Below, in pieces: positions 711-37,168 of a DNA stretch of 38,710 nt (within the stretch, counting starts at the first letter, position 1; each line of letters begins with the position of its first letter). The stretch is taken from NCBI GenBank assembly GCA_018830225.1, contig JAHJSS010000022.1, positions 1 to 38,710 on the forward strand. Direction: 5' to 3'. The position numbers and the translations under genes were made by a program. This stretch comes from Nanobdellota archaeon. GTDB lineage: Archaea; Nanobdellota; Nanobdellia; Woesearchaeales; UBA11576. Below the pieces are notes generated by a model. It made no database searches. It was given only the letters and a program-made list of their open reading frames with translations, and had not been told where the DNA came from.

Positions 711-907
711 TGCTCTGTCCCAAGACTTGCTCTTGCGCAGCCACAACCGCCTAGCGAGCTGTGGACTGAACAGCAGAGAATGCCGCAGTTGGGCACCTTC
801 AAGCTGTGCTTGAAGGTCAGCGCCTACGGGGAAAGCGCAATAAGAAGCGGTTCAAGAATTGGTGCGAGCGCGGTTGTGGCTGTGCGAATGTGACTCTGAA
901 CAGAGCA
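711..907. mobile_element. Non-autonomous hairpin element (family 1) with 9-bp flanking direct repeats GCCTGAAAC
   Basis: Ends TGCTCTGT.../...ACAGAGCA are inverted; 13-bp stem CAGCCACAACCGC (738-750)/GCGGTTGTGGCTG (870-882); GCCTGAAAC at 702-710 and 908-916. Confidence 0.7.
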
Positions 908-999
908 GCCTGAAACCTGAAACCAAAACTTTAAATATACTCCGTCAATCCTTACCCTTGTCCTTCTACGATTTATAAATCGAGGTAGAGGGAGGTAAA

Positions 1000-27625: not shown

Positions 27626-27897
27626 CAGCAGCGCCGCCGTGAATATGCGGGTGCTGTCAAGTTAAGTGTCATGCCGCCTAGTGAGCTGAGTGCAAAATAG
27701 GCGCTAAATGTCGCAGTTCAGCAGAAATAGGCAGCGAGAGAATCGCAGCGAGCGCGGCATGACACACTTCTTGACTTTACCGAATATGCGAGGCGTTGCT
27801 GCTTTAATGACGAGGCCGTTGTCGGGGGACGTCCCTTACGGGGAGACAGGCCCCTTGACATGAATACGCGGACGCCGAGCTTCACGCGGCGCTGCTG
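27626..27897. repeat. Family-2 hairpin element interrupted by a 132-bp family-1 element
   Basis: Ends CAGCAGCGCCGCCGTGAATATG / GACGCCGAGCTTCACGCGGCGCTGCTG; core GGGGGACGTCCCTTACGGGG 27824-27843. Confidence 0.7.
27650..27781. mobile_element. 132-bp MITE-like element, copy 1 (TSD GAATATGCG)
   Basis: TIR GGTgctGTCAAGttaaGTGTCATGCCGC / reverse complement of end GGTaaaGTCAAGaagtGTGTCATGCCGC; GAATATGCG at 27641-27649 and 27782-27790; matches 36420-36551 base for base by eye. Confidence 0.88.
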
Positions 27898-27948
27898 TTC
27901 ATCAGCTTAACAAATACATTAAGTTTAAATTGTCTTGATTTTTTCCAG

Positions 27949-33267: not shown

Positions 33268-34476
33268 TTATTCCATCGGTGCGTGGTCCAGGAGTATGAA
33301 CGGCTGGAGGTATGCTATCTCTATCGCGACGCGCTTTCCGTCGCTGTGCCTGCTCCCGTCAGCAATGAACTCGAGCACTTTTGCCTGTTCTATCTCCACT
33401 TTCTTCGCGAGAGTGTCTTTTATCCCTGGTATCCCTGCCGGCCTGCCGCGGTAGATGTTTGGTATCCTCCAGACTATATCCAGCGGGTCAGGGTTGCCTG
33501 CGAGAAGGTGGAATGAGTATGCGGCAGGGTCGAGAGCTTCTTCCTTCTCAGGCTCTCCTGCCTTGAAGTATGCCTGGAACTCTTCCGGGCTCTTGGGCAT
33601 CTGGTGGAATGGTCTCAGGCCGTAGAGGCTTACTCCCATAGTACCTATAGCGAGCGCGTTCCTCTTCTCTTTCCTTCCTATTATCACCCGGTCGTCTGCA
33701 GTGACCTCTCCTTCAATCTCATCGAGTATCCTGTATATGTATCTCTGGCTGTATAGTGTTCCCGGGATACCTTTTCTCGGGGAGACCCTGTCGAGCAGGG
33801 CAGATGCAGACGAATTTGCGACCACCTTCAGCGCAGTGAGCATGTTCGAGCTTCCGCCCCGGTCCTTCGGCAGGTAGTATTCGCTGAAGAAGTTGTAGAG
33901 GAACCCGTCTGCGTATAGTGTCATGAGCTGTACATGGTCGAGGTCTTTCGGGTGTTCCTTGTCATAGAGCATGAGTACCGGGACATATACTCTCCTGAAC
34001 TGTCTTGTCCCTTGTTCAGGATGTATCCTGTTCGCTGCATCTATGTTTGCTGTGATATCCTCCAGGTCACCTTCCATCCTGTGGACGTCGCTGTATACAT
34101 TGACCGTGCCGCGTGGCCTGTGGTATATGCAGGGGAGGAAAAGTTTCGATCTCTTGTTTAGGGCCATGCGGTTCATCGCCCTTGCGAACTCGATAGGTGT
34201 CTTTCTTTTTCCGAATCTCCTGTATGCCTGCTTGAAGTATTCTGTCATGAAGTAGTGGACAGCGCCGTCCCCTCCGGAGAGGAACGCAATCATTATTCTT
34301 TCCATGAGGACCTTGTCGCATATCGCTGTCACTTCCTCTTCTGTGGCAGTGCTCTGGACTCCGGATCCGGGCAGTATGCCTATTGTCCTCCTGAGGTGCA
34401 TCAGTTCCTTCTCTACAGACCTGCCTCTGTTCTGTTTTGCCTTTCCATTGATTATCGCTTCGATGCTCAACACCAT
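33268..34476 (-). CDS. Uncharacterized protein (~400 aa)
   Basis: Long ORF with neighbour-like codon usage; no family recognised. Start ATG 34476 preferred over 34509. Confidence 0.6.
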   Translation of the reverse strand: MVLSIEAIINGKAKQNRGRSVEKELMHLRRTIGILPGSGVQSTATEEEVTAICDKVLMERIMIAFLSGGDGAVHYFMTEYFKQAYRRFGKRKTPIEFARAMNRMALNKRSKLFLPCIYHRPRGTVNVYSDVHRMEGDLEDITANIDAANRIHPEQGTRQFRRVYVPVLMLYDKEHPKDLDHVQLMTLYADGFLYNFFSEYYLPKDRGGSSNMLTALKVVANSSASALLDRVSPRKGIPGTLYSQRYIYRILDEIEGEVTADDRVIIGRKEKRNALAIGTMGVSLYGLRPFHQMPKSPEEFQAYFKAGEPEKEEALDPAAYSFHLLAGNPDPLDIVWRIPNIYRGRPAGIPGIKDTLAKKVEIEQAKVLEFIADGSRHSDGKRVAIEIAYLQPFILLDHAPME

Positions 34477-34537
34477 TCCTCGCAGGTCCGTCCTGTTTTT
34501 TATAAACATTTGCTGTCATTATCATTTGACGAAAGCA

Positions 34538-34641
34538 GCGCCACTGCCGCCTAGCGAGCTGACTGCTGAGATACGCAGCTAATATTGCAGTTGGGCAAAA
34601 AGAAGCAGTTCAATACGCGACAGCGAGCGCGGCAGTGGCGC
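34538..34641. repeat. Family-1 hairpin element (third sequence variant)
   Basis: Stem GCGCCACTGCCGC (34538-34550)/GCGGCAGTGGCGC (34629-34641) around CCGCCTAGCGAGCTG...GCGAGCGCGG core; no TSD found. Confidence 0.6.
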
Positions 34642-34698
34642 GGTGCCTGACTTCACGGCGCCATCAACCACTTCTCACAAAAAGATTTAAATACTTAA

Positions 34699-34714
34699 AC
34701 TACTTTGAAGTAGT
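34699..34714. promoter_or_regulatory. Near-palindrome ACTACTT-TG-AAGTAGT between a TATA-like element and the signal peptidase start
   Basis: 7-bp perfect arms, 2-bp centre, 6 nt upstream of ATG 34721; TTTAAATACTT just upstream. Confidence 0.4.
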
Positions 34715-34720
34715 CAAATA

Positions 34721-35272
34721 ATGCTTTCCAGGCCTGTCCTGGTGCTGTTTGGGGGTTTTATTTTGGGAAGAATACGGCTTTTTTTGGTATTATTGTCAGT
34801 TTTCAGCCTTGGATGGCTTCTCAATACTGTCCTGACTAACTTTGTCTATTATGACGCAGAAAAACCCCTTTCTTTCGGTTTTGTGCCATTCATGAAGAGC
34901 CCTGAGCGGCTCTCGCCTTCAGATCATGTCAAGGAGAGCCAGATACACGTATATGACGACAGGGTGGTCATTGACGCTCCTGGCGCCAGCTGGGCCTCTT
35001 TCACTGACACCAATTCCATGGACCCTTTCTTTGATGAGACCTCTAACTCTATAGAGCTGCGGCCTGCGTCACCTGCGGACATAGACCCGGGTGATATCAT
35101 ATCTTACAGGTCTGGCATCACAGGAGACCTGATAGTACATCGCGTGGTCTCAAGGGGTGTTGATGATTCTGGTGTCTTCTATCTTGTCAAGGGCGACAAC
35201 AACCCTACACAGGATCCTGAGAAGGTCAGGTTCGATCAGGTGCATGGTGTCTTGATAGGGATCATCTACTGA
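34721..35272 (+). CDS. Signal peptidase I-like (S26, archaeal type)
   Basis: N-terminal TM, TNSMDPFFDETSNSIEL, DPGDIISYRSG, LIVHRVVSRG, YLVKGDNNPTQDPEKV. Confidence 0.8.
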   Translation: MLSRPVLVLFGGFILGRIRLFLVLLSVFSLGWLLNTVLTNFVYYDAEKPLSFGFVPFMKSPERLSPSDHVKESQIHVYDDRVVIDAPGASWASFTDTNSMDPFFDETSNSIELRPASPADIDPGDIISYRSGITGDLIVHRVVSRGVDDSGVFYLVKGDNNPTQDPEKVRFDQVHGVLIGIIY

Positions 35273-35344
35273 TGGTCTGCCGAGTATTTAAACATCGGTT
35301 AAAAATTTAAACCAGGCTGATATATCTTTTTCAGGGGGGCTTGA

Positions 35345-36382
35345 ATGAAGAAATATTTCGAGGATATTGTCGGTATTTTTCTGAGGTTATTCTCTACTCC
35401 CCAGACGGTACCCCCGTCAAAAGACAAGATTGTATATGGCACAAACCTGAGGATGGTGCGTGCAGGTGCAGTCATAAGGAAAAGGTTCAACGGCACTTAC
35501 AAATATCTTCTTGGCAGGGCTGAGAAAGACGGTGAGGCTCACAACCCTGCGCTCAAGACCGCTGGCGGCTATCTTCACCTGTCGTCAGATTACCATGATG
35601 AGATAGACAGGTCATCCATAGACGGCCTTATTAGGGAGGGGCAGGAGGAGGGATTGAGCAGCATCATACCCGGGACCATATCTCCCTGCGGAGTCGCCTA
35701 CTCTCCTTCGAAAGGTGTGCTGCAGTTCTTCTCTGCTGATCTGGAACGCTACCCTGAGAAAGGGTTCAACAAGGAGGTCCTGTTGAGGAGGAGGAAGGGT
35801 CAGAGAGTGTACATTCGGTGGTGTTCTATCGACGAAATCGTCTCGTCCATGAGTGGCAACGGTTCAGGCCTTGTCGTGCAGCCCGAGACTGTCAATGTCA
35901 TAGCTTCGACGCATTTCTTCGAGAGCAGCAAGAGGGTCAGGTTCGGCAGGGAGTACATGCCTGATTTTGTTAGGCCTGACAGCAGCCTGTCTATCCCTCA
36001 GAGCGTCAGGAGAAAGGTCATCCGCGAAAGCGGTGTCAAGTGGCTTGACAATGAAGACTGCCTGCAGAGCTGCCGCGTGTATTACACTATCCCTGAGCTG
36101 GCGCGCCAGAATCTTGATGACTCTGAGGTCTCCAGCATCTTCAGCAGGTTCCTGAGCATGACAGGCACTGTTCCGCACATCAGGATATTCTTCATGGCTG
36201 ATTTCTTCCTTTATGAGACTGTGCTTGGTGCACAGGATATAGCAGATCTCCTCGGTTCCCATGAATTTGGGAAGAAGAACAAGCAGTTCGCTGAATGGGC
36301 CCCTGATATCGTGAGGGGCTTCGTCAAGAAGAACTATGCGAAGATACTCAAGGAAGAGATGTTCAAGGAGTATATCCTCTAG
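35345..36382 (+). CDS. Nudix-like domain protein (degenerate Nudix box), uncharacterized C-terminal region
   Basis: AGAVIRKRFNGTYKYLLGRAEKD...TAGGYLHLS...GLIREGQEEGLSS resembles Nudix but the box is imperfect. Confidence 0.45.
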   Translation: MKKYFEDIVGIFLRLFSTPQTVPPSKDKIVYGTNLRMVRAGAVIRKRFNGTYKYLLGRAEKDGEAHNPALKTAGGYLHLSSDYHDEIDRSSIDGLIREGQEEGLSSIIPGTISPCGVAYSPSKGVLQFFSADLERYPEKGFNKEVLLRRRKGQRVYIRWCSIDEIVSSMSGNGSGLVVQPETVNVIASTHFFESSKRVRFGREYMPDFVRPDSSLSIPQSVRRKVIRESGVKWLDNEDCLQSCRVYYTIPELARQNLDDSEVSSIFSRFLSMTGTVPHIRIFFMADFFLYETVLGAQDIADLLGSHEFGKKNKQFAEWAPDIVRGFVKKNYAKILKEEMFKEYIL

Positions 36383-36419
36383 TGCGTTTTATGGATCCTT
36401 TTTTGTTTCGGATCTTCAG

Positions 36420-36551
36420 GGTGCTGTCAAGTTAAGTGTCATGCCGCCTAGTGAGCTGAGTGCAAAATAGGCGCTAAATGTCGCAGTTCAGCAGAAATAG
36501 GCAGCGAGAGAATCGCAGCGAGCGCGGCATGACACACTTCTTGACTTTACC
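36420..36551. mobile_element. 132-bp MITE-like element, copy 2 (TSD GATCTTCAG)
   Basis: Matches 27650-27781 base for base by eye; GATCTTCAG at 36411-36419 and 36552-36560. Confidence 0.88.
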
Positions 36552-36598
36552 GATCTTCAGTAAAATATATAAATGCAGCTCTTTATCGTCCAGCTACA

Positions 36599-37168
36599 AT
36601 GAAAACAGCTAATCTTATCGGGATTATTGTCATGCTGTCTTTCCTTTTGGCCATATCTGGCTGCGGCGGAAAGGAGGCAGAGCCTGCTCCGCTTCCTGCT
36701 GAGGATGTGACTGAGGCTGCTGCTGAACCAGAGCTGCCTGAGGAAGGTGTGCATGATGCTGGACCTGATGTGACTGAGGAGGTTGTTTCTCCGGAGGGTG
36801 CAGAGGAGTCTGCAGAAGAGACTGTCGAGGAAGTCGAACAGGTTGAAGAAGTTGAATCTGCCCCAGAAGAGGTGGAGGCTTCTGATTCTGAGCTCACTGC
36901 AGAGAACTACAGGGTCATTTCCTTGAAGGACCTCAAGGCATACCCTGAGGAGATGAACATCAAGGTCGGCACGACAGTCGAATGGCGCAATGTCAACGAC
37001 AACCTTCAGCACATAATCGGCTGGAACGGCCAGAGATCGCAGGGTGTGAAGCCTGAGCCCATGCTTGCGGGTGAGAGCTGGAGCTACACTTTCAACAGTC
37101 CTGGAAAGGTGGTGTGGTTCTCCACAGCAAGGCCGACGATCCAGGGTACGATATATGTAGAGGAGTGA
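36599..37168 (+). CDS. Cupredoxin-like lipoprotein with acidic linker, Cu ligands mostly lost
   Basis: Lipobox AISGCGG; Glu-rich linker; MNIKVGTTVEWRNVNDNLQHIIGW ... GKVVWFSTARPTIQGTIYVEE. Confidence 0.75.
   Translation: MKTANLIGIIVMLSFLLAISGCGGKEAEPAPLPAEDVTEAAAEPELPEEGVHDAGPDVTEEVVSPEGAEESAEETVEEVEQVEEVESAPEEVEASDSELTAENYRVISLKDLKAYPEEMNIKVGTTVEWRNVNDNLQHIIGWNGQRSQGVKPEPMLAGESWSYTFNSPGKVVWFSTARPTIQGTIYVEE

Follow-up and report, generated by a model that had tools for sequence, protein, structure and literature searches.

The 132-bp repeat that occurs twice in the window (the whole 38,710-nt stretch of DNA analysed here) is a recently active MITE. We found that it very probably belongs to a Woesearchaeal group of IS6-like ISs that make 9-bp target duplications (TSDs), and that its interior is a separately evolving structured module. 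As a MITE the element is of a known kind; the structured module in its interior is undescribed.

A multicopy element with individual target duplications

Direct reading of the window agreed with the first-pass annotation that two segments are identical base for base over 132 bp, each with its own 9-bp TSD (Table 1). The ends form imperfect inverted repeats, as had also been described, with 21 of 28 positions identical. In the left repeat of copy 2, the outer ~22 bp are IS-like, while the inner 12 bp are part of the module stem. The annotation had counted two copies of the element. The window's genome, a Woesearchaeota MAG (1.32 Mb, 81 contigs, 92.6% complete), was found to hold 16 full copies on 14 contigs and in both orientations, and the interior proved to be a separate repeat with two more copies in the window. 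Six copies are identical, three are at 99% identity and the remainder at 92-96%, and they fall into two sequence subfamilies. The 16 copies occupy 16 different targets, with perfect 9-bp TSDs in 13 cases, 8/9 matches in two and a 7/9 match in one (L015 being counted as a 131-bp copy with TSD CTGAAAACA). No transposase ORF is present in the element. It therefore has the features of a MITE: it is short and multicopy, with inverted ends, no transposase gene and a TSD for each copy. Copy 1 seemingly lies within a longer palindrome (window 27627-27900; CAGCAGCGCCGCCGTGAA ... TTCACGCGGCGCTGCTG), perhaps another repeat.

Table 1 Positions in the window of the 132-bp MITE, its parts and the other module copies.
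Feature	Position	Strand	Sequence or remark
MITE copy 1, 132 bp	27650..27781	+	same sequence as copy 2
Copy 1 left 9-bp TSD	27641..27649	.	GAATATGCG
Copy 1 right 9-bp TSD	27782..27790	.	GAATATGCG
Copy 1 structured module	27674..27757	+	
MITE copy 2, 132 bp	36420..36551	+	
Copy 2 left 9-bp TSD	36411..36419	.	GATCTTCAG
Copy 2 right 9-bp TSD	36552..36560	.	GATCTTCAG
Copy 2 left terminal inverted repeat	36420..36447	+	GGTGCTGTCAAGTTAAGTGTCATGCCGC
Copy 2 right terminal inverted repeat	36524..36551	-	GGTAAAGTCAAGAAGTGTGTCATGCCGC
Copy 2 conserved structured module	36444..36527	+	
Second MITE type, longer module version	711..907	+	ends TGCTCTGTCCC...GAACAGAGCA
TSD of the 711..907 MITE	702-710 and 908-916		GCCTGAAAC
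Module core of the 711..907 element	747..873	+	127 nt, extra hairpin insert
Module copy, no recognisable transposon ends	34547..34632	+	own outer stem, GCGCCACTG...CAGTGGCGC

A structured module with several carriers

The module corresponds to element positions 25-108 and occurs also without the element ends. Its best-conserved parts are CCTAGCGAGC, TCGCAGTT and GCGAGCG, and one loop holds an additional hairpin in some copies. Using a covariance model built on the 84-nt core, we identified 34 copies in the window's genome, and 17 and 6 in two genomes of its genus, G002 and G001, respectively. Five more genomes of the order, and G009 from the family of the window's genome, had one or two copies each. 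The total in other Woesearchaeota is ~30 copies. Four copies lie within the window, one in each 132-bp copy and two elsewhere (Table 1). At locus L022 the module has an 18-bp direct repeat, GTCAGAATTTCGGTTTTG, on both flanks, which is too long for a 9-bp TSD.

We searched Rfam with module copies from window 34400-36700 and from L086, L089, L090, L092 and L100 and found no match above the gathering score. A scan for the module pattern in 84,980 genomes gave 49 matches, 15 of them in Woesearchaeota; nine matches from elsewhere were put to the covariance model and none fitted. Module matches in a phylum sample of 371 genomes were confined to the order, and three pattern matches in viral contigs were not significant to the covariance model.

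MITEs usually have common ends around a meaningless interior. Here, the module was found inside MITEs with at least three end types. The first type has GGTGCTGTCAAG ends and a 9-bp TSD. The second has GTATTTGTTTAGC ends and a TSD of about 8 bp (AATAAAAC at L019). The third has ends of GGCTCTGT followed by CCC or AGA and a 9-bp TSD; it includes the 711-907 element of the window and L092 (with CTGTTCAGC/CTGTTCAAC). The module was absent from the transposase-bearing partner ISs described below and from those MITEs of other genera that have GTCAAG ends (L120, L124, L125, L134 and L135). Since several end types carry the module, and ISs and MITEs with matching ends lack it, module and ends assort separately.

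Fold and possible role of the module

The outer stems differ between module copies yet pair, with a mean of 7.0 of 8 positions versus 3.8 when arms were swapped between copies (maximum 4.4 in 1000 shuffles). In the core, two-sided changes were found at 7 pairs and in 23 cells, versus 3.1 and 4.2 in shuffles (0 of 500 reached the observed value), and slid structures were 20-46% paired versus 92.7% for the modelled core fold; fitting the core alignment to the model's structure has tilted these core figures in its favour, a bias from which the outer-stem test is free. At one gene junction, with the neighbours kept on both sides, the copies L098 in G002 and L103 in G001 have both stem arms changed. 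Together, the outer-stem pairing, the two-sided core changes and the changes at L098/L103 support a conserved fold, as predicted from comparison of the copies.

The compensatory pairs in excess of shuffled and slid controls, the outer-stem pairing and the paired arm changes at L098/L103 would also fit a structured RNA or DNA element that functions in the host, such as a protein-binding site or a processing or termination element, and travels as MITE cargo. We regard this as possible rather than probable, and it does not conflict with reading the element as a whole as a MITE. Against it, module copies have no common neighbour and occur in both orientations, in gaps between convergent, divergent or tandem genes, and palindromes can self-correct through template switching. 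Selection at the RNA level is not established by the weak excess of G-T over A-C (32 versus 18 outside one pair that is nearly fixed as G-T). The same comparison in the outer stems changed sign, from 7 versus 10 in a first count to 11 versus 4 with gapped pairing, and is thus a weak test. A cis-regulatory role tied to one orientation or one neighbouring gene was rejected, as neither pattern was seen. Seemingly recurrent neighbours of ~480 aa turned out to be ORFs truncated where the 1.5-kb loci end. The pairs L022/L112 and L003/L102 were rejected as orthologous positions: the neighbour gene is common but the module is placed differently.

If the module itself were the mobile unit, a REP/REPIN-like hairpin with a dedicated enzyme such as a HUH transposase, and its outer stem had become the ends of the 132-bp form, this would agree with the dispersed extragenic copies, the conserved fold and the many copies without recognisable transposon ends. 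We consider this unlikely, because a DDE IS group that lacks the module has 9-bp TSDs and ends like those of the 132-bp form, and because the module lies within three end types that are unrelated to one another.

Going beyond the identification of the element as a MITE, we tentatively propose that this undescribed Woesearchaeota module has been kept by compensatory change and has repeatedly become MITE cargo under unrelated ends, serving either the elements or the host. It may serve the elements in target choice, stability or host-factor binding, or it may serve the host and be spread by the MITEs.

Matching ISs in other Woesearchaeota

Of 353 genomes in the order, 25, from 19 genera, contain the left end GGTGCTGTCAAGTTAAGTGTCA when at most 3 mismatches are allowed; a reversed control gave 2 matches. 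In the window's genome, the element ends were confined to the 16 copies and a single end remnant, and no partner IS was seen. Contig G249:C17 was found to carry a complete 934-bp IS with ends GGCGCTGTCAAGTTAATTGGCA and GGTATAGTCAAATTCCCTGTG and TSD AAATAAACG. This IS encodes a 264-aa transposase that matches DDE_Tnp_IS240 (PF13610) at 66 bits (cut-off 27), scores 129 for IS6 (cut-off 125) and has an N-terminal zinc ribbon of the IS1/IS1595 type. Relatives of this transposase were found across the order by protein search, and six of them (L186, L187, L188, L190, L197 and L199) have both ends and perfect 9-bp TSDs. The partner ISs are about 890-940 bp long, and perfect 9-bp TSDs were found in 7 of the 11 with recognisable ends, a tally biased towards duplications by a script that required flanks agreeing at 7 or more of 9 bases; L191, L193, L194 and L196 have recognisable IS ends and no TSD. 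A PDB sequence search with a partner transposase gave no transposase among the matches.

Ends closely similar to those of the 132-bp element are present on transposase-bearing ISs of G249 and G297, and the start of L197, GGCAAAGTCAAGTTAAGTGTCA, agrees with the window element at 18 of 22 bases. The nearest partner ISs belong to other families of the order than the window's genome. MITEs with GTCAAG ends were also identified in other genera, with perfect 9-bp TSDs at L124, L134 and L135 and 8/9 matches at L120 and L125; L124, L125, L134 and L135 are 132-143 bp long. In a genome of the same genus (G003, L029 1501-1522), the left 22 bp of the element occur base for base, followed by other sequence and no module.

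The first-pass annotation had suggested a search for a transposase gene with the same terminal inverted repeats. Matching-end ISs do exist in other Woesearchaeota, but the window's own assembly had no match to the G249:C17 protein, PF13610 or PF03400, which at 92.6% completeness and in 81 contigs is a weak absence. Because no such transposase was found in this assembly, we infer the helper of the 16 copies.

Family assignment

The NCBIfam IS6 scores of four partner transposases are borderline (129, 127, 126 and 113 bits versus a cut-off of 125). Both the MITE copies and seven intact partner ISs have a 9-bp TSD, not the 8-bp duplication that IS6 elements are described as making (PMC7986276), and archaeal IS6-like members have been argued to fall outside IS6/IS26 (PMC6807381). 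For these two reasons, we describe the partner group as IS6-like without placing it in IS6. When compared with the end features of IS6, the 132-bp element has the GG tips and G7, and CTGT is present in its left end, while TTGCAAA is absent.

The annotation had leaned, with the family left unassigned, towards an IS of the IS1/IS1595 type. The 9-bp TSD, the GGT ends and the zinc ribbon agree with that lean, but the matching-end ISs encode DDE_Tnp_IS240. A classical IS1 or IS1595 element as the mobiliser is improbable. The TSD of about 9 bp and the GGT tips do suit IS1, and the partner transposases, with their IS1/IS1595-type zinc ribbon, reach 40-64 bits on the IS1 model NF033558. These scores are below the cut-off of 100, however, whereas the IS6 scores are at or near theirs, and the intact matching-end ISs carry an IS240-type DDE domain. 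PF03400 (IS1) had no match in the window's genome and 19 relatives, 20 genomes in which the search controls were positive, and IS1 was rejected as the partner on this empty search. The TSD of the IS1595 family is 8 bp, versus 9 bp here.

Recent transposition and placement beside other elements

Copy L001 is inserted at the end of another repeat, whose outermost 9 bp, AACAAATAC, form the target that was duplicated. This 9-mer is present once in the sister repeats L019 and L020, which thus preserve the empty site. The 16 targets with their own 9-bp TSDs and the surviving empty site argue for recent transposition, as the annotation had concluded from two copies; they also bear out its view of a non-autonomous element moved in trans. 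Chance cannot produce 16 such copies in different TSD-flanked targets. Although two base-identical copies only 9 kb apart on the same contig might suggest segmental duplication or an assembly artefact, the probability of this is negligible given 16 copies on 14 contigs, in both orientations and two subfamilies, with individual TSDs and flanks that all differ when tabulated, and the 16 different targets rule out same-flank duplication.

For five of the 16 copies (L003, L009, L010, L012 and L016), a GGCTCTGT end of another element type was found at a distance of 9-11 bp, with the copy on the outer side of that end in every case. Against a background density of 0.0009 per copy, drawn from the window and other fetched loci and not from the whole genome, five of 16 corresponds to p ~ 3e-12. 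In addition, L001 directly adjoins a GTATTTG element at its end, and next to L015 there is a remnant of an end of the same type as its own. Bacterial ISs are known whose targets are extragenic palindromes (PMC1525189). The contigs of L009, L010 and L016 (C5, C14 and C10) end ~150-180 bp past the GGCTCTGT end, which would fit an assembly break at an unassembled repeat.

In the mechanism that we propose, an IS240-type DDE transposase whose N-terminus carries a zinc ribbon would act in trans, binding and cutting the ends GGT-N3-GTCAAG-N4-GTGTCA, and joining at a 9-bp stagger would create the TSDs. The helper transposase may now be lost, unassembled or on another replicon. The interior, rather than decayed transposon DNA, is probably a REP-like extragenic repeat of older origin that came to be enclosed by two IS ends. 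Insertion beside the ends of other MITEs could be the route by which the module is captured under new ends.

Comparison with known systems

With a conserved interior and differing ends, selection inside a MITE becomes directly testable, and the covariance model allows the module to be tracked across DPANN genomes. The results also point to a Woesearchaeota IS group that combines an IS6-like DDE domain with a zinc ribbon and a 9-bp TSD. Archaeal IS6-like ISs (PMC6807381, PMC7986276) share with the partner ISs a single ORF, GG tips and an IS240-type catalytic DDE domain with E...K-R and W---F motifs close to its end. The partner ISs differ from them in the length of about 890-940 bp, in the N-terminal CxxC zinc ribbon of the IS1/IS1595 type and in the 9-bp TSD.

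The IS6-family MITEs MITEBth2 and MITEHarch3, listed in PMC6807381 and compared here by description, resemble the 132-bp element in having IS6-type ends without a transposase gene, with GG tips and G at position 7. Unlike these MITEs, the element has a 9-bp and not an 8-bp TSD, its ends continue GTCAAGTTAAGTG, and its interior is a conserved structured module common to other MITE types. The module in turn resembles the REP/REPIN sequences, which are known together with REP-targeting ISs (PMC1525189, PMC3116915) and are likewise dispersed extragenic structured repeats at or beside which mobile elements insert. By eye, the GTAG/CGTC tag of REP was not seen in the module core. The module further differs from REP/REPIN in that it has an 84-nt branched core, versus a hairpin of 20-40 bp, is archaeal and lies inside MITEs.
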